Source: a virus
Virus record (IMG/VR): IMGVR_UViG_3300037584_002593
Coordinates: 1 to 20,698 of that record
DNA length: 20,698 bases
Reading direction: 5' to 3' (one strand)
Every line of letters starts with the position of its first letter. Positions within the stretch are counted from its first letter, which is position 1. Below, piece after piece: positions 1 to 19,625 of the stretch. The position numbers were made by a program, and so were the translations under genes. The notes under the pieces were generated by a model. It had not been told where the DNA came from, did not search any database, and worked only from the letters and a program-made list of their open reading frames with translations.

Positions 1-531
1 GACGAGTCTTTAGTCGGCTTGCTGGATGACGTAAAACGCTTGCAAGCTATGCCTCCGGGTAGTCTTGGAAACGAATACTCGAAGTTCCTAGTAAAAACAG
101 GTCGATCTACATCGCAGTTTGCGGGTGATACTAAGGGCAAGGGCGAGAAGCCATCAGAGTCAGGGTTCAATACCTACATCAAGTGGTACAGAGATCAGCA
201 TGATTTGACTCATACGGTAACAGAGTATGAGCGCAATCCCTTTGGCGAAGTGGTCTTGCTCTGGTTCCTGCACGGAAACTTTGCAAACTTTGGCATCATC
301 GCAATGACGATACCCATGACGATAACGCATGCTAGAAAGAAGGGTTGGGGGGTCTTTGGCGCATCCTTTGAGGCGTATATGAACGGGCGCAGGGCGCAAT
401 GGCTTGCAGGCATGGATTGGCCGAATTTGCTAGACATGCCTTTACGAGACGTGAAAAAACTTATCGGCACAAAGTCCCCTGAGAAGTACCATAATTTAAT
501 GTCTAGCCTGCGAAAAAGGCGCAACTGGTGA
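1..531 (+). CDS. coq4: Coq4-like ubiquinone biosynthesis protein, 5' end cut by window edge
   Basis: The frame is open from the first base, so the gene starts upstream and 176 C-terminal codons are visible. Counting from base 1, the protein has LLDDVKRLQAMPPGSLG at residues 7-23, then HDLTH at 67-71, eleven residues, and E83. This matches the HDxxH-x11-E metal-binding signature of the Coq4 family. A later WPNLLDMPLRDVKKLIG stretch (140-156) fits the usual Coq4 C-terminus. In cells Coq4 works in ubiquinone biosynthesis; recent work assigns the eukaryotic protein a role in oxidative removal of the C1 carboxyl group. In a phage it would be an auxiliary metabolic gene that keeps host respiratory quinone supply going, which is inference. 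It overlaps the next gene by four bases (GTGA), so the two are probably translationally coupled. A TTG at 19 is an internal codon, not the likely start. Confidence 0.82.
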   Translation, partial: DESLVGLLDDVKRLQAMPPGSLGNEYSKFLVKTGRSTSQFAGDTKGKGEKPSESGFNTYIKWYRDQHDLTHTVTEYERNPFGEVVLLWFLHGNFANFGIIAMTIPMTITHARKKGWGVFGASFEAYMNGRRAQWLAGMDWPNLLDMPLRDVKKLIGTKSPEKYHNLMSSLRKRRNW

Positions 532-1025
532 AAGTGGTTGATGACTTTCTCCATCCAGACTTGTATCACAGAATATTGGATGGTTTGAAAGATTTAGACT
601 ACAAGCTTATCGATGACTACGATGGCTCAGAGAAGCACGAGGCAGGCTTGAAGACCGAGGTGGTTGAAGAAATTAAGGCTTGTTACCAAGAAAAGGTAAG
701 AGAGCCTGTTGGTTTTTTCGCGGCATCAATTGTGAAGTGTGATCCGGGGTACAAATACCACATACACTACGATCACCCTAACAAGTTGGTCAGCACCGTG
801 GTTTACCTTTACCCAGACCAAGGCAATGGCACTTTCTTTGTTACAAAAGAAGAGGGCTTAAAAGCATATTTTGACGAGATTATCTGGTATCCAAACCGCT
901 TAGTGTCTTGGATCAACACGGGTCAGAGGCATATGTACCGAAATACGACTGACGATATTCGATGTACACTGAACATATACCAGAAGAAACTAGACATAGA
1001 TTTTGCAGTAACACCTGACGATTGA
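528..1025 (+). CDS. Fe(II)/2-oxoglutarate-dependent oxygenase, small phage type
   Basis: A 165-aa protein starting with GTG inside the stop of the upstream gene. It resembles the prolyl-4-hydroxylase-like 2OG oxygenases common in marine phages. The iron facial triad can be placed as H80-x-D82 in HIHYDH and a distal H135 in GQRHMYRN. R145 in IRCTLNIY is the probable 2-oxoglutarate anchor. The spacing HxD-x52-H is normal for the double-stranded beta-helix fold. Such enzymes hydroxylate a protein, lipid or small molecule; the substrate here cannot be read from sequence. Four-base overlap with the Coq4-like gene suggests joint expression and possibly a shared pathway, but phage neighbours are often unrelated. 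A ribosome binding site for the next gene (AAGGAG) overlaps its stop. Confidence 0.82.
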   Translation: MKVVDDFLHPDLYHRILDGLKDLDYKLIDDYDGSEKHEAGLKTEVVEEIKACYQEKVREPVGFFAASIVKCDPGYKYHIHYDHPNKLVSTVVYLYPDQGNGTFFVTKEEGLKAYFDEIIWYPNRLVSWINTGQRHMYRNTTDDIRCTLNIYQKKLDIDFAVTPDD

Positions 1026-1036: not shown

Positions 1037-1456
1037 ATGAGCAAGTTGGTTGAGATGCTTAGGCGACATGAAGGTGTGCGTAGCCATGTATATCTGTGCA
1101 GTGCTGGCTACGAAACGTTGGGTGTAGGGCGCAACATTAGTGAATCTGGGCTAGGGCTGTCTGATGATGAAATCGACTACCTGCTTGAGAATGATATCAA
1201 ACGAGTGAAGAAGGAGCTTTCGGAAGCATACGATTGGTTTGATGATCTAAGTGACGCTAGACGTGACGCAATGATTGATATTTGCTTCAATCTTGGTTTG
1301 ACTAGGCTTCGTGGCTTTGTAAACGCGCTAGAGGCCATGTCACGGCAACAGTTCGATATAGCTGCCGATGAGTTCATGGATAGCAAATGGGCCGATCAAG
1401 TTGGGATGAGAGCTTTGCGAGTTACCGAAATGATAAGAGATGGTGAGTACACCTAA
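1037..1456 (+). CDS. Endolysin, T4-type lysozyme (GH24) with catalytic Cys
   Basis: A 139-aa muramidase that cleaves the glycan of peptidoglycan at lysis. From the ATG at 1037, catalytic E12 (RRHEG), C21 (YLCSAG) and T27 (ETLGVG) reproduce the E-x8-D/C-x5-T spacing of T4 lysozyme E11/D20/T26. Cys stands where T4 has Asp; an engineered D20C T4 enzyme is known to stay active, and natural E-C-T endolysins exist. The C-terminal half (RRDAMIDICFNLGLTRL, then ALEAMSRQQFDIAADEFMDSKW) matches the helical lobe of the family. Length is a little short of T4 lysozyme (164 aa). There is no clear signal-anchor or transmembrane segment at the N-terminus, so it probably needs a holin; none is recognisable in this window. 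It overlaps the following tail gene at TAATG. Confidence 0.9.
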   Translation: MSKLVEMLRRHEGVRSHVYLCSAGYETLGVGRNISESGLGLSDDEIDYLLENDIKRVKKELSEAYDWFDDLSDARRDAMIDICFNLGLTRLRGFVNALEAMSRQQFDIAADEFMDSKWADQVGMRALRVTEMIRDGEYT

Positions 1457-3351
1457 TGCCTTTGCAGAAATTCATCTTTAACCCCGGAATCAACAAGCAG
1501 GGAACTGATTACACTGCGGAGGGTGGATGGTTTGACGGCAATCTTGTTCGGTTTCGCCAAGGTTTGCCCGAAAAAATCGGTGGTTGGGTTAAATATCTAA
1601 ACAGTTCTTTTGAAGGGACAGGCAGAAAGCTGCTGGGCTGGACGGCTGTTGATGGAACTAAGCTTCTTGGCATTGGCACCAGAAGCAAATTGTACATTTC
1701 GTCGGACTCAAACTATAGCGACATAACGCCGGTTCGCTCAACCACTGCGGCAGGCGACGTAACTTTTGGCGCTACGAATACGTCTAGCTCTATCACCGTC
1801 ACAGACACCGCTCACGGAGCATCTCTAGGCGATTTTGTAACTTTCAGCGGGGCTGCAACGTTGGGCGGCAACATAACTGCTGCGGTCCTAAACCAAGAGT
1901 ATGAGATTGATTCAGTTAGCGATACGAACACATATGTCGTTATCGCAAAAGACACATCTGGCGCAACGGTTACAGCAAACGGCAGTGATACTGGCAATGG
2001 TGGCAGTTCTGTTGTGGGCGCATATCAAATCAACGTCGGTCTTGACGTATTCCTTAATGGCACAGGGTGGAGTGTCGGCGCTTGGGGTAATGGCGCTTGG
2101 GGATCTTCTAGCGCACTGAGTCCGTTGAACCAACTACGCTTGTGGTCCATGGATAGTTTTGGCGAGGACTTGATTGCTAACGTGCGAGCAGGAGGCATTT
2201 ACTACTGGGACACTAGTGCAAAAAATTTAGGGGCAGATCGTGCTGTAAATATTTCTGCTCTTGCGGGCGCAAATTTTACGCCTACAGCCGCTCTTCAGGT
2301 CCTTGTATCTGACGTAGACCGGCATGTAATTGCCCTTGGCGCAGACCCCATCAATGATACCGCAACAGCTAGAACTGGGACTATTGACCCTCTTTTGGTT
2401 GCTTTTTCTGACCAAGAAAACGCGGCAGAGTGGTTTCCTACATCAACAAACACTGCCGGTTCGCTGCGTTGCTCGGCAGGCTCACAAATTATCAGTGGCC
2501 TCAGAACACGGCAAGAAACTTTGATATGGACGGATGTGGCTCTTTACAGCCTACAGTTCATTGGTCCGCCTCTCACCTTTGGCTTAAACCTAGTCAGTGA
2601 CGGCGTCAGCATCATTGGGCCAAACGCTGCGATCAGCACCCCGAATGGCGTGTTTTGGATGGACAGGAAGGGCTTCTATCAGTACGGAGGAAGCATAACG
2701 CCTCTTACTTGTACGGTTCTTTCTCATGTACTGGACGACTTTAACGCAGATCAAGGGTTTCAGGTTCATGCGTTTGTAAACAAGCAGTTTCAAGAAGTGG
2801 GTTGGTTCTATCCATCCGGAAACTCAATGTCGATAGACCGGTACGTTACATATAATTACGTCGAGCAGACGTGGGCTATTGGTGAGCTATCTAGAACCGC
2901 GTGGCTTGACGAGGGGTTAGAAAGCTTCCCAAGAGCCGCCGGGTACGACGGTGCGGAAAACTACATTTACTCTCACGAAACAGGCCACGACGATGACGGC
3001 CAGCCGATGGATAACGTCTTTGTTGAAAGCGCCGACTTTGATTTAGGTGATGGCGAGCAGTTTCAGTTTATCCGAAGATGTGTTCCAGACGTTAAGTTCA
3101 CGGGTGATAGCGGGGCAACGCAAACGATTAACTTTGTTTTGAAAGCAAGAAACTTCCCCGGCGATTCACTGACCACGGACCAAACATCTTCTTTTACGAC
3201 TAACAGCACAAAAATAGACACCCGTGCGCGAGGTCGTCAGGCTGCGGTTCGGTTTGAATCTGATGACGATGGTGACATTGGCGTAAGAACAGGGGTTGGT
3301 TTTAGGATTGGCGCAACTAGGCTTGATTTACAACCAAACGGCAGACGATGA
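1456..3351 (+). CDS. Tail accessory / DNA-stabilisation-type structural protein
   Basis: A 631-aa virion protein. The N-terminus (FNPGINKQGTDYTAEGGWFD, then VRFRQGLPEKIGGW, residues 8-44) is typical of a phage family related to P22 gp10-like stabilisation proteins and tail-tube B proteins, which close the portal channel and carry the tail. The body is rich in beta strands with short repeated Trp and Gly turns (GWSVGAWGNGAWGSSS, 204-219). Residues about 100-185 look like an inserted Thr/Ser/Gly-rich beta module (HGASLGDFVTFSGA, 120-133) of the kind spliced into many tail proteins. The C-terminus (RARGRQAAVRFES, then IGATRLDLQPNGRR) is also usual in this family. It starts with ATG at 1456 inside the lysozyme stop and overlaps the next gene at ATGA. 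The exact position in the tail is inferred, not shown. Confidence 0.75.
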   Translation: MPLQKFIFNPGINKQGTDYTAEGGWFDGNLVRFRQGLPEKIGGWVKYLNSSFEGTGRKLLGWTAVDGTKLLGIGTRSKLYISSDSNYSDITPVRSTTAAGDVTFGATNTSSSITVTDTAHGASLGDFVTFSGAATLGGNITAAVLNQEYEIDSVSDTNTYVVIAKDTSGATVTANGSDTGNGGSSVVGAYQINVGLDVFLNGTGWSVGAWGNGAWGSSSALSPLNQLRLWSMDSFGEDLIANVRAGGIYYWDTSAKNLGADRAVNISALAGANFTPTAALQVLVSDVDRHVIALGADPINDTATARTGTIDPLLVAFSDQENAAEWFPTSTNTAGSLRCSAGSQIISGLRTRQETLIWTDVALYSLQFIGPPLTFGLNLVSDGVSIIGPNAAISTPNGVFWMDRKGFYQYGGSITPLTCTVLSHVLDDFNADQGFQVHAFVNKQFQEVGWFYPSGNSMSIDRYVTYNYVEQTWAIGELSRTAWLDEGLESFPRAAGYDGAENYIYSHETGHDDDGQPMDNVFVESADFDLGDGEQFQFIRRCVPDVKFTGDSGATQTINFVLKARNFPGDSLTTDQTSSFTTNSTKIDTRARGRQAAVRFESDDDGDIGVRTGVGFRIGATRLDLQPNGRR

Positions 3352-15075: not shown

Positions 15076-16518
15076 CTAAATAAGCCATTTCTTGGCCTCT
15101 TCGCCCAAGACTTCTTGGGCTATGTCAATTTTGTCGCGTAGGGCCTTGATGATCTTTTCATCTACGGTGTCTGGGCTGACCAAATCCACGTACAAAACAT
15201 GCCGAGTTTGACCGATACGATGCGCACGGTCCTCCGACTGTAATCGTATCTCTAGGTCGTACTGGTTGTTGTAGTAGATCATGTTGGTAGCAGCCGTCAG
15301 CGTCAGCCCGTAGCCCCCAGTTCGGGGGTTTGCCACAAAAAACCGCAGATCGCTGTCGAGGTCTTGAAACTCAGCCACAATCTCGTCTCGTTCGTCGGCA
15401 GGAGTGGCCCCATAGAAGGTGCGCACGGACCTTGGCCCATAGACCTTGGATAATTCTTTCTCTATCTGCTCTATGTCGTAGACCCAGCTAGCCCAAACGA
15501 TGACCTTGCCGTCCATCTCACTTATCACGTCCAGTAACTCAGACATTCGGTTGCTGTCTAGCGCCTGTATCTCGCCGTCGTCCGTCTTGAGATGCCCACA
15601 ACAGATCTCTTGTAGCCGCATAATCTGCGTCAGGACGCTCTGTGTGGTCGCCAGTTCGCCTTTTTCAAGCATGGCTAGGGCCATGTCTTGCATTTGTTTG
15701 TAAGCCCGCTCCTGCTCCTTGGTGAGCGCCACGTTGCGTTGCGTATAGATTTTCTCCGGCAAGTCTAAGCAGTCTTCTTTTAAAACTCGGCTAGAAAAAT
15801 CGTTCAGCTTGACGTTTAGTTCGTCGAGATTGCGGTAACCGGTGATGTCCTGAAAGCTTCTGTTGCCAAACTTACGCTGCGTGATCACCGCATAACGGCC
15901 CTGAAACGCGTAGTAACTGTCGAACCCGAGTAGATCAGTGCCCAAGAAAGCACACTGGGCGTATAGATCCATGGGGTTCTTGGTTATAGGACTGCCGGTC
16001 AGGATGCGTTTGTACTTGGCTTCTTTGCCTAGCGCGACGATGTTCTTTGTACGCTTTGCTGTACGGTTTTTAATCGACGTGGACTCATCCACCGCCACCA
16101 AACAGTTGCGGTTACGCTTCACAAACCACTTAGCCACGTCCACACCTTTCTTAGTAGAGAACGACTCGACGTTCATCACCAAGATCTTCAGGTGCTCTTG
16201 GTCGTTAGCAAGAGCCAGCAACTCTGCTTTGAACGTCTGCGTCAGGTTTGGTTGCCACTGAACTACACTGACCGGTATTCTGTCCGGCAAGTGTTGCGGT
16301 ATCTCCTTGTGTACCCAGTTGCCGTACACGCCTTTTGGCGCAATGACCACGGCTGTATCTATCTCACCGTCGCAATAAAGCTTGGCAATCGTGTCGATAG
16401 TTACCTTGGTTTTGCCCGTGCCCATCTCAAGGAACAGCGCCCATGCGCGGCTATTCCAGCTAGCATCAAAAACCTCTTGCTGGTGTTCGTAGGGTTGGGT
16501 CTTGAAAGTAAATTGCAT
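15076..16518 (-). CDS. SNF2-family helicase/ATPase
   Basis: A 480-aa superfamily 2 ATPase, the only minus-strand gene. In order: Q-like motif YEHQQEVF (10-17), Walker A MGTGKT (32-37), Walker B DEST (144-147), motif III LTGSPI (173-178), then the second RecA lobe with VIVWASWVYDIEQIEKEL (339-356), motif V TGGYGLTLTAATNMIYY (400-416) and motif VI QSEDRAHRIGQ (427-437), which is diagnostic of SNF2 proteins. It is complete but compact, with no added domains. Phage members may remodel DNA-bound proteins or drive branch migration and recombination-linked replication, as T4 UvsW does; which of these applies is unknown. It is read away from the replication block from the shared 98-base intergenic region. 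Its stop (TAG read on the minus strand) abuts the stop of the Gln-rich virion gene. Confidence 0.92.
   Translation of the reverse strand: MQFTFKTQPYEHQQEVFDASWNSRAWALFLEMGTGKTKVTIDTIAKLYCDGEIDTAVVIAPKGVYGNWVHKEIPQHLPDRIPVSVVQWQPNLTQTFKAELLALANDQEHLKILVMNVESFSTKKGVDVAKWFVKRNRNCLVAVDESTSIKNRTAKRTKNIVALGKEAKYKRILTGSPITKNPMDLYAQCAFLGTDLLGFDSYYAFQGRYAVITQRKFGNRSFQDITGYRNLDELNVKLNDFSSRVLKEDCLDLPEKIYTQRNVALTKEQERAYKQMQDMALAMLEKGELATTQSVLTQIMRLQEICCGHLKTDDGEIQALDSNRMSELLDVISEMDGKVIVWASWVYDIEQIEKELSKVYGPRSVRTFYGATPADERDEIVAEFQDLDSDLRFFVANPRTGGYGLTLTAATNMIYYNNQYDLEIRLQSEDRAHRIGQTRHVLYVDLVSPDTVDEKIIKALRDKIDIAQEVLGEEAKKWLI
15103..15120. terminator. Perfect hairpin near the convergent gene junction
   Basis: GCCCAAG at 15103-15109 and CTTGGGC at 15114-15120 pair perfectly around the four-base loop ACTT. 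It lies 28 bases past the stop of the + strand virion gene and inside the last codons of the helicase gene. Neither strand has a clean U tract after it, so it is a weak candidate for a bidirectional terminator between the convergent units. It could also be chance, as it codes for VLGEE. Confidence 0.3.
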
Positions 16519-16564: not shown

Positions 16565-16604
16565 TCGTTTGGGAAGTGGCTAACGCCATTTGAAACTTGA
16601 AAAA

Positions 16605-16610
16605 CGGAGA
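16605..16610 (+). promoter_or_regulatory. Ribosome binding site of the first replication-module gene
   Basis: CGGAGA places GGAG about seven bases before the ATG at 16617. It supports that ATG rather than an in-frame TTG at 16590, which would add nine residues. Confidence 0.65.
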
Positions 16611-16616
16611 ACGACG

Positions 16617-17183
16617 ATGAGTGACTTACTCGCCGACATGGCTGCTGACAGCCAATCTTCTTTGTCTCTGCCCGGAGACAAGAGCTTAGATGCTTTGTCA
16701 TCTATCGCAGATTCTATCGTATCTGCGGAGCAAACGGTCAAAAATCTCGAATCACAGCTAAAAGAAGCAAAGCAGGTACTGCTGAAGCTCACAGACGAAG
16801 ATCTGCCTAGCAAGATGCAAGAGATCGGCATGACCAACTTTACCTTGCGAGACGGTAGCAAGGTCGAAATCAAAGAGACGTATGGTGCGCGAATCAGCAA
16901 GCAGAACGAAGCTGCGGCTTTTGATTGGCTACGCTCGCGTGGCGAAGGCGACATCATCAAAAACACCGTCACAGTGCGCTTTGGTAAGGAGAAAGATAAC
17001 GAAGCGCAAGCCTTGGTCGAAGAACTCCGTAGGCAAGCTTGGGAACCAGAGCAGAAGCAAGAGGTTCATCCCTCGACGTTGAAGGCTTGGGTCAAAGAGC
17101 GAGTGGAGCAAGGTAAGGAGCTAGACATGGAATTGTTTAGTGTGTGGGTTGGACAACGAGCAACGATTAATAAGGCAAAATAA
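16617..17183 (+). CDS. Hypothetical coiled-coil protein of the replication module
   Basis: A 188-aa protein that I do not recognise. Residues about 33-60 (AEQTVKNLESQLKEAKQVLL, 37-56) have strong heptad character. A compact region follows (LPSKMQEIGMTNFTLRDGSK, 63-82, then VEIKETYGARIS, FDWLRSRGEGDII, TVTVRFG), which looks like alternating strands and a helix. The C-terminal part (HPSTLKAWVKERVEQGKELD, 151-170, then FSVWVG) is charged and helical. There is no membrane segment or catalytic motif. As the first gene after the promoter and directly coupled (TAATG) to the candidate ssDNA-binding protein, it is probably a DNA replication or recombination accessory factor. That is inference from position. 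Confidence 0.62.
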   Translation: MSDLLADMAADSQSSLSLPGDKSLDALSSIADSIVSAEQTVKNLESQLKEAKQVLLKLTDEDLPSKMQEIGMTNFTLRDGSKVEIKETYGARISKQNEAAAFDWLRSRGEGDIIKNTVTVRFGKEKDNEAQALVEELRRQAWEPEQKQEVHPSTLKAWVKERVEQGKELDMELFSVWVGQRATINKAK

Positions 17184-18010
17184 TGGCTGATAAAGACGAA
17201 AAGAAAGTAGCGGAAAAGAAAAATAGCGACGTTGTGGTCGCAAGCGCAGCAATGTTTGAAGCAGATGCTGGTGCAGGAATGCAGATGACTGAGGACGACT
17301 TAGCACTGCCGTTTTTGAAGATCGTGTCTTCTGAACTATTGAATCAGGACGCAGACATTGCCGATAAGGCGAAGCTGGGGGACATGATCAACTCGGTGAC
17401 GAAGCAAATTTACTCGGGCAAAACACCGATCAAGGTGATTCCGTGCCACTACAAGCGAGAGTTTTTAATGTGGGCACCTCGCGGCTCTGGTAACGGCGCA
17501 CCTTTGCAGATTTTTGCGCCGGAGGACCAGCGTCCACCAACAACTCGCGATCCTGCGACCAACAAAGACTTTGTCGATAACATGCAGGGTGAATACATCG
17601 ATGAGACGCACCAGCATTTTGTCCTAATACTTGAGGAAAACGGCACTTGGTCGAACGCGATGATTTCTATGAAGTCTACGCAGTTGAAGAAGTCCCGTCA
17701 GTGGAACTCAATGATTGCCACGCGGACGATGGTGGGCGCAAACGGACCGTTCACGCCACCTCGCTTCTCACATATCTACAACCTGTCTACGAACAAGGAA
17801 GAAAACTCCAAGGGCGTGTGGCACGGCTGGAAGATTGAACTGGAGGGTCCGATTGAAGATCCTGCGCAATACCACGCGGCTAAAAGCTTTCATCAGTCCA
17901 TCAGTGCGGGGGATGTGACGGTCAAGCACGAAGAGTCAGGGCCTGCGAAACCAGCCCCGCAGGGTGGTAATGAAGCGTCTGAGGAAAATTCCGACGATAT
18001 ACCTTGGTAA
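17183..18010 (+). CDS. Candidate ssDNA-binding-like protein with SSB-type acidic tail
   Basis: A 275-aa protein starting at TAATG on the upstream stop. The N-terminal 38 residues are charged and probably disordered. The core (about 38-235) contains LALPFLKIVSSE (40-51), TPIKVIPCHYKREFLMWAPR (81-100), HFVLILEENGTW (145-156) and GVWHGWKIELEGPI (211-224), a strand-rich pattern with many aromatic residues. I do not see a classical OB-fold signature. The last 25 residues are Pro/Gly/Glu-rich and end NSDDIPW, very close to the DDDIPF tip by which bacterial SSB proteins recruit partners. Acidic aromatic-ended tails are also found on phage SSBs such as T7 gp2.5. The neighbouring primase ends EDDIPF. 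The ssDNA-binding function is therefore inferred from tail and context, not from a recognised fold. Confidence 0.6.
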   Translation: MADKDEKKVAEKKNSDVVVASAAMFEADAGAGMQMTEDDLALPFLKIVSSELLNQDADIADKAKLGDMINSVTKQIYSGKTPIKVIPCHYKREFLMWAPRGSGNGAPLQIFAPEDQRPPTTRDPATNKDFVDNMQGEYIDETHQHFVLILEENGTWSNAMISMKSTQLKKSRQWNSMIATRTMVGANGPFTPPRFSHIYNLSTNKEENSKGVWHGWKIELEGPIEDPAQYHAAKSFHQSISAGDVTVKHEESGPAKPAPQGGNEASEENSDDIPW

Positions 18011-18092: not shown

Positions 18093-19625
18093 ATGGATAT
18101 TCGTAGATTTGCTGAAATATTTGATGGCCTGAAACAGGCATACGGGACTTTTAAAATTGAGTCCAAGTCGAGCAGTGGCAAGACGCAGGGTAAGGCAAAC
18201 GTGGTTCGCGAACCTCGGACCAAAGAAGATTGGGAAAACCATCTAGCTGGTACACAGTCGATTGGGATCATCCCGATCAACGAGGACAACGCCTGCCGTT
18301 GGGGCTGTATTGACATCGATCAATACAACTTCAACCACAAGGCTCTGATCGACAAGATACAGGCGGCGAAGCTACCTCTGGTGGTATGTCGCAGTAAATC
18401 AGGGGGCGCTCACGTCTTCTTGTTTACGGACGCTTTCATTCCTGCAAAAGACATGCAGGACGTGCTGACTCAGCTTTGTGCTGGGTTGGGGTACGGCGGT
18501 AGTGAGATATTTCCGAAGCAGGTAAGTCTCAACCTAGAGCGTGGCGATGTGGGTAACTTTCTTAACATGCCTTACTTCGACCATGAGAATGGTCTGAGGT
18601 ATGCCTTCAACCTCGACGGCACGGCGGCAACGTTGGAGCAATTCTTTGCCTTGGTGGCAGAAAACGTGCAGACGCACGAGCAGGCTCTGTCTTTAGTCGT
18701 TGAACAAGATCAATCGCTACCCATACCAGACGGCCCGCCTTGCTTACAGATACTGTGTAAGGAAGGGATAGGCGAAGGCGCTAGGAATAACGGGCTGTTC
18801 AACGTGGGTGTTTACTTACGCAAGGCGTATCCCGATACGTGGGAAACAGAGATACTCAATCACAACATGAACTTCATCCACCCTCCGCTGCCCTTGGGCG
18901 AGGTGAACACGGTTGCTAAACAGCTTGAGCGCAAAGATTATGCTTACAAGTGTAAAGACGCGCCAATCAACGCGTACTGTAACCCTGAACTATGCAAAAC
19001 GCGTAAGTTTGGTATCGATGCTGCTGTCTCTGGCGTACAAATCGCCAACCTGCGCAAGTACAACAGTGTTCCGCCCGTGTGGTTCTTGGACGTTCAAGGT
19101 CAGCCCTTGGAACTAGGGACAGACGATTTGATGAACCAAGCGGCGTTTCAGCGAGCTTGCGTGGAACAGTTGAACTTTTTCCCTCGGACAGTGCAAAAAG
19201 CGCAGTGGGAGCAGCGTATCAACGCTCTGCTGAACGAAATGAGTGACACGGAGGGTCATGTCATTGAAGTAAGTCAGGATGTTAGCGTTAACGGGCAGTT
19301 TGCAGACCACTTGGAAGAGTTCTGCACGGGGCATCAAGCCGCTGATGAGAAAGAACAGATCTTGCTCAAGCGCCCATGGACTGATGAAGATCAGAAAGAA
19401 ACGTACTTCCGGCTCAAGGATCTGGAGGCACACTTGGTAAAAGCTAATTTCAAGGCATACAAAACGCATCAGATCGCGCAGAGACTGCGTGACGTAAACG
19501 GCGAAGCAACTCAGCTTCGTATACAAGGCAAGGTTATTCGTTTGTGGAAGATACCCGCACATGAACAACCGACCGGACGTGTGGCAGAGCCTTCGTTCGG
19601 TAAAGAAGACGACATACCTTTCTAG
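18093..19625 (+). CDS. TOTE-like archaeo-eukaryotic-type primase with SSB-like tail
   Basis: A 510-aa protein. The primase core spans about residues 50-200. Motif I is GCIDIDQYN with D74 and D76; motif II is RSKSGGAH with S103 and H107; GSEIFPKQ (136-143) and GNFLNMPYFD (154-163) follow. These are the signatures of the archaeo-eukaryotic primase group described from TOTE conflict systems. A C-terminal helical primase domain follows (GIGEGARNNGLFNVGVYLRK, 225-244), ending in a Cys cluster (C287, C296, C301, then KTRKFG) that may bind zinc. The last 150 residues are unassigned. The protein ends GKEDDIPF, matching the SSB C-terminal tip. It would make primers for phage replication. No helicase of the DnaB type and no polymerase is fused to it, unlike many phage primase-helicases; the SNF2 gene nearby is the only helicase in view. 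Confidence 0.85.
   Translation: MDIRRFAEIFDGLKQAYGTFKIESKSSSGKTQGKANVVREPRTKEDWENHLAGTQSIGIIPINEDNACRWGCIDIDQYNFNHKALIDKIQAAKLPLVVCRSKSGGAHVFLFTDAFIPAKDMQDVLTQLCAGLGYGGSEIFPKQVSLNLERGDVGNFLNMPYFDHENGLRYAFNLDGTAATLEQFFALVAENVQTHEQALSLVVEQDQSLPIPDGPPCLQILCKEGIGEGARNNGLFNVGVYLRKAYPDTWETEILNHNMNFIHPPLPLGEVNTVAKQLERKDYAYKCKDAPINAYCNPELCKTRKFGIDAAVSGVQIANLRKYNSVPPVWFLDVQGQPLELGTDDLMNQAAFQRACVEQLNFFPRTVQKAQWEQRINALLNEMSDTEGHVIEVSQDVSVNGQFADHLEEFCTGHQAADEKEQILLKRPWTDEDQKETYFRLKDLEAHLVKANFKAYKTHQIAQRLRDVNGEATQLRIQGKVIRLWKIPAHEQPTGRVAEPSFGKEDDIPF

Follow-up and report, generated by a model that had tools for sequence, protein, structure and literature searches.

A Coq4-family gene in a marine phage and its radical SAM neighbour in related contigs

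Coq4 enzymes are known from the mitochondrial synthesis of coenzyme Q, and the motif HDxxH-x11-E has been described for COQ4 (PMC9774615, PMC7615680). The animal enzyme carries out a Zn-dependent C1 decarboxylation for which this motif is required (PMC7615680), and the crystal of the Coq4-like protein Alr8543 (Protein Data Bank entry 6E12) holds oleate and two Mg ions at it (PMC9774615). Bacteria are served at the C1 step by UbiD and UbiN, and aerobic decarboxylation in Rhodobacter uses UbiN (PMC10626278). Here we analyse a Coq4-family gene at the start of a 20.7-kb virus record (20,698 nucleotides, GC 50%; the window), together with its relatives in other viruses and in cells.

A Coq4-family gene at the edge of a phage contig

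The first reading frame of the window (Table 1) is already open at its first base. Cut off by the contig end, it keeps the final 176 codons of a longer gene: the protein has lost roughly 60 residues at its N terminus and its C-terminal three quarters are present, a truncation that the initial annotation, correct about the family, had left unmentioned. The fragment matches the Pfam Coq4 profile PF05019 over positions 74–219 of 221 (E 1.9e-11), well above the curated cut-off of 22.9 bits, and the full-length relative L015 reaches 55.3 bits over positions 8–220; in all, the window and four full-length relatives score above the cut-off. The metal-binding motif, which had been described as intact, is indeed complete, with HDLTH followed eleven residues on by Glu. 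HDxxH-x11-E was seen once in the six-frame translation of the window against 0.027 expected from base-shuffled windows, and shuffling the residues of the window Coq4 protein recreates it in 0.03% of cases; its presence is not due to chance. The flanks quoted in the same annotation, including the C-terminal MPLRDVKKLIG, are real as well, and an MPxGSLG stretch is common to the window protein and cellular Coq4 proteins. We are all but sure that this reading frame belongs to the Coq4 family.

The window is from a marine bacterial virus. Lysozyme, virion and SNF2 helicase genes lie in the window and a terminase gene in a relative contig (47% identical to that of phage 023Pt_psg01 and 46% to that of Pelagibacter phage HTVC027P); the virion structural protein marks the contig as phage, and the phage gene context led us to reject host contamination. 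The best structural and terminase relatives come from phages of Gammaproteobacteria, Roseobacter, Pelagibacter and cyanobacteria. Elsewhere in the window, the SNF2-type helicase gene (15076–16518) is the only large gene whose place on the minus strand is clear, and a TOTE-type archaeo-eukaryotic primase domain (PF22548) is encoded at 18093–19625, near Pam3 gp33- and gp34-like genes at 16590–18010.

Relatives of the window protein (77–97% identity) occur in 22 other IMG/VR contigs, many of which are near-copies, so that the number of distinct lineages is about ten. The full-length proteins have about 237–245 residues and Pfam matches of up to 55 bits; the nearest relative, L002, carries the full reading frame and aligns with the window over 4.9 kb at 95.8% identity. 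Across this marine clade the median pairwise dN/dS of Coq4 is 0.09 for 20 measurable pairs, many other pairs being near or at synonymous saturation, and the median for the radical SAM gene described below is 0.06. Marine-clade Coq4 is thus under purifying selection, neither decaying nor unconstrained, and is kept as an auxiliary gene would be.

Table 1. Positions of the Coq4 gene, its motif and neighbouring features (window coordinates unless a contig is named)
Feature	Position	Strand	Evidence
Coq4-family gene, 5′-truncated at contig end, 176 of ~237 codons	1..531	+	PF05019 44.1 bits; full-length relatives L002-L022
Metal-binding motif HDLTH-x11-E (predicted); HDLTH codons 199-213, Glu codon 247-249	199..249	+	Sequence; H, D, H, E invariant in 73 aligned Coq4 proteins
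2OG-Fe(II) oxygenase-like gene, GTG start, 4-nt overlap with Coq4 stop (GTGA, 528-531)	528..1025	+	ORF; L003 homologue PF13640
Phage lysozyme (endolysin), cassette neighbour in most relatives	1037..1456	+	PF00959 49.2 bits
Virion structural / stabilization protein	1456..3351	+	phrog_3287 E 2.8e-71; 39% identity to phage DSL-LC04
Radical SAM/SPASM partner	L003:5003-5827		PF04055 49.7 bits, PF13186 25.0 bits, both above cut-off

Predicted fold and residues around the metal site

An AlphaFold model of L002 made from 73 phage and cellular Coq4 sequences (pLDDT 89.4, pTM 0.85) matches the known Coq4 structures 6E12 (Z 20.4, 2.9 Å, 204 residues) and 3MSQ (Z 18.0), the next-best PDB entry reaching only Z 3.3; Foldseek gave E 2.9e-07. 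The alignment of the marine phage clade alone yielded no confident model (pLDDT 46) and, because cellular Coq4 sequences are in the larger alignment, the match stands as support, not independent proof, for the predicted Coq4-type all-helical fold of the phage protein. A top PDB match to 6een, a designed PPR repeat, was rejected as a repeat artefact.

Six residues are invariant across all 73 aligned proteins: H128, D129, H132, T135, E144 and G190 (L002 numbering). Around them, the marine clade carries R123W, W131T, Q154N, G100Q, L101F, T155F and E202P, changes at positions that are 80–100% conserved among the cellular Coq4 sequences sampled. An unchanged metal site amid altered conserved surroundings suggests that the marine-clade protein may act on a substrate different from that of cellular Coq4, and with R123W, W131T, Q154N and G100Q even decarboxylation may be lost. 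The intact motif had been taken to argue for function, which the invariant ligands and the purifying selection bear out; judged from its sequence, the phage protein is probably catalytic.

A radical SAM cassette and other viral Coq4 genes

In relatives of the window, Coq4 has a constant neighbour. A radical SAM/SPASM gene lies directly upstream in 21 of the 21 contigs with upstream sequence (many near-copies, from about ten lineages); the window is without it because its contig begins inside Coq4. The gene encodes 274 residues, overlaps the Coq4 start by about 10 nt, and has both a SPASM domain and the core CxxxCxxC, as CNRTCSFC in the alignment. Moreover, an IMG/VR scan with the radical SAM protein returned 20 contigs, every one bearing Coq4. 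Downstream, a 2OG-Fe(II)-like gene is present in 15 of 23 contigs, the window included, with no match in INPHARED; this assignment is weak, given that the L003 copy scores 22.9 bits against PF13640, below the 27-bit cut-off, and that the HxD...H pattern was read by eye. The window copy matches PHROG 274, 'DNA endonuclease V', but resembles a 2OG-Fe(II) oxygenase (HxD...H), and the label may be wrong. The cassette adjoins lysozyme, in the lysis region, in 19 contigs and DNA polymerase A in four. That radical SAM and Coq4 stay together while their genomic place changes is the mark of a functional unit, and we consider it likely that the two act jointly. No related radical SAM gene was found in 80 cellular Coq4 loci, so the pairing is without a known cellular model; nor was one found in the examined stretches of other phage Coq4 lineages.

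The neighbourhood bears on two other readings of the cassette. One is that Coq4 is a non-catalytic, lipid- or isoprenoid-binding protein acting on the membrane, as in lysis or the exclusion of superinfecting phages, as its place beside lysozyme in most contigs and the lipids bound by family members in crystals (PMC9774615) might suggest. The four contigs in which the cassette adjoins DNA polymerase instead, the retention of every metal ligand under selection and the radical SAM coupling, which suggests chemistry, make this reading distinctly unlikely. The other takes a macromolecule as the target of the cassette, be it peptide, glycan or nucleic acid, in place of a lipid or quinone. Some radical SAM/SPASM relatives are peptide maturases, but those NCBIfam matches are weak, with scores far below cut-offs; the closest radical SAM proteins in INPHARED are encoded amid other radical SAM and aminotransferase genes, and Coq4 of L147 lies amid glycosyltransferase and methyltransferase genes. 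As the known ligands of the Coq4 fold are hydrophobic and no small precursor ORF is fixed to the cassette among the called ORFs, checked by eye, a macromolecular target seems to us improbable.

A broader scan found Coq4 relatives in 63 viral contigs. About 40 of them are T4-like (L138-L164, L235-L260) and, from our reading of the IMG sample series, of freshwater habitat; here Coq4 is flanked by the terminase gene gp17 and the tail sheath gene gp18, and its 5′ end overlaps the end of gp17 by about 60 nt (for example, L140:7929-8681). In these contigs gp17, which is 54–57% identical to cyanophage gp17, is nearly invariant (dN/dS 0.014), whereas Coq4 is more variable but still under purifying selection (0.16). 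A GT2-linked group (L141, L142 and L147) has the gene order glycosyltransferase–Coq4–unknown. Finally, Coq4 of L137 (L137:4037-4816), a contig with the phage genes lysozyme, ThyX and cell-wall hydrolase, shares 80% identity with genes on the chromosomes of marine Gammaproteobacteria (L051, L053 and L054), and by sequence we regard it as a recent acquisition from such a host. L137 and the other groups in a tree with cellular Coq4 support at least two gains by phages; the same tree does not demonstrate separate origins for the marine and freshwater clades, a single origin not being rejected (AU p 0.46). One further protein is encoded in both L137 (5874-6497) and L147 (9920-10465): the two copies begin with a P-loop-like SG(A/G)TKYCLDL, are 34% identical across 106 residues and match neither a PHROG nor a Pfam family.

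Coq4 genes of viruses seem not to have been described before. The phage Coq4 proteins tested had no match in PHROGs, and tblastn with three Coq4 queries found none among the 50,697 phage records of INPHARED. A Coq4 profile search of five isolate records (including DSL-LC04, HTVC027P and CRP-902) and a BFVD structure search were likewise negative for Coq4, and we found no paper on viral Coq4 in the open-licence literature. Within this searchable scope, the remark that Coq4 is not an established phage gene holds. A scan of the genome contigs with the phage-only Coq4 alignment gave no match.

Ubiquinone, the proposed chemistry and comparison with known systems

Alpha- and gammaproteobacteria mostly make ubiquinone. 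Coq4-family genes, however, are rare there: with the centre genomes counted in, they occur in 12 of 142 genomes of the first class and in 3 of 143 of the second. Carriers are often multi-copy, a single genome giving as many as six matches; the control genomes gave 1 positive in 14, a cyanobacterium. UbiD is present in 5 of 12 Coq4-positive and 4 of 10 Coq4-negative alphaproteobacterial genomes; at about equal presence, and with these small numbers, Coq4 does not look like a replacement for UbiD, and in these genomes the family does not seem to track either ubiquinone or UbiD. On two Sphingomonad plasmids (L042:3983-4780 and L043:3932-4729), Coq4 lies amid P450, acyl-CoA dehydrogenase and OB-fold genes, a catabolic setting that hints at a possible catabolic role of bacterial Coq4. 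Taken together, the rarity, the multiple copies, the apparent lack of a relation to UbiD and the plasmid setting mean that, in bacteria, membership of the Coq4 family is not to be equated with ubiquinone. The Coq4 genes of L059 (named Klebsiella pneumoniae) and L109 (Bacillus sp.) fall among those of other proteobacteria, within Sphingomonas in the case of L109; these are probably mislabelled or contaminated assemblies.

These findings turn the main functional idea of the initial annotation, that the phage sustains the respiratory quinone of its host, into a minority reading. As a true C1 decarboxylase, the phage protein would keep the host quinone pool full in infection; in support of this are its family and intact Zn-type motif, the C1 step done by animal COQ4 (PMC7615680) and the reported occurrence of ubiG among viral genes of Lake Baikal (PMC8066274). 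Against it, in addition to the genome counts above, UbiD and UbiN do the C1 step in bacteria (PMC10626278), the marine clade has changed conserved positions, and the fixed radical SAM partner is left unexplained. Among the genes scanned, the cassette holds no recognised ubi gene, only the radical SAM and 2OG-like genes. To our knowledge, the radical SAM partner belongs to no described ubiquinone pathway. We therefore consider ubiquinone support unlikely, and the alternative offered alongside it, recruitment of the fold for something else, is now more likely than quinone support.

The reading that we prefer, and hold with moderate confidence, is that the gene encodes a functional, metal-dependent, lipid- or aromatic-modifying enzyme of the Coq4 family, the second gene of a radical SAM–Coq4(–2OG) auxiliary cassette. 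The cassette runs from radical SAM/SPASM through Coq4 to, often, a 2OG-Fe(II) oxygenase-like gene, in overlapping reading frames. During infection, the radical SAM enzyme would make a radical-based change on a hydrophobic substrate (aromatic-prenyl or lipid); Coq4 would bind the product in its hydrophobic cavity, where the divalent metal held by H-D-H-E would remove a carboxylate or carry out related lyase chemistry; and the 2OG enzyme, where present, would hydroxylate the result. The family, fold, conserved ligands, purifying selection and fixed linkage are the observed part of this scheme; beyond them we infer that the enzymes may share a substrate, that it may be a lipid and that the reactions may follow this order, decarboxylation being suggested by analogy with animal COQ4. 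More tentatively, the two or three enzymes may form a phage-only pathway for the synthesis or remodelling of a membrane lipid or quinone that is not among the products of known cellular pathways. If so, this would be a new reaction for the Coq4 fold and a new phage route to alter host membrane or respiration. In any case, the Coq4 family joins the phage gene repertoire in several contexts, one of them welded to radical SAM. Because bacterial Coq4 is too scarce in the classes that make ubiquinone for a general ubiquinone enzyme, the phage cassette offers a compact system in which Coq4-family chemistry outside mitochondria becomes testable; this, and the seemingly undescribed state of viral Coq4, give the finding its interest.

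Among known systems, the freshwater T4-like Coq4 proteins are likewise phage-borne, with intact motif and under purifying selection, but they differ from the marine clade in their gp17/gp18 site, lack of radical SAM, 19–28% identity and separate place in the tree. The nearest cellular proteins by search, from marine Gammaproteobacteria, Sphingomonadales and Myxococcota (up to 39% identity, L046), adjoin no related radical SAM gene, the Sphingomonad plasmid copies adjoining P450 and acyl-CoA dehydrogenase genes instead. The closest solved structures, the Nostoc Coq4-like proteins Alr8543 (6E12) and Npun02000094 (3MSQ), are cyanobacterial, only 15–19% identical to phage Coq4, and carry HDI(W/Y)H where the phage motif has T in place of W/Y. 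With eukaryotic COQ4, the C1 decarboxylase, the phage protein shares Pfam family, HDxxH-x11-E and predicted fold; in contrast to it, the phage gene stands outside the mitochondrial setting and the COQ metabolon, with changed conserved residues and a fixed radical SAM partner.
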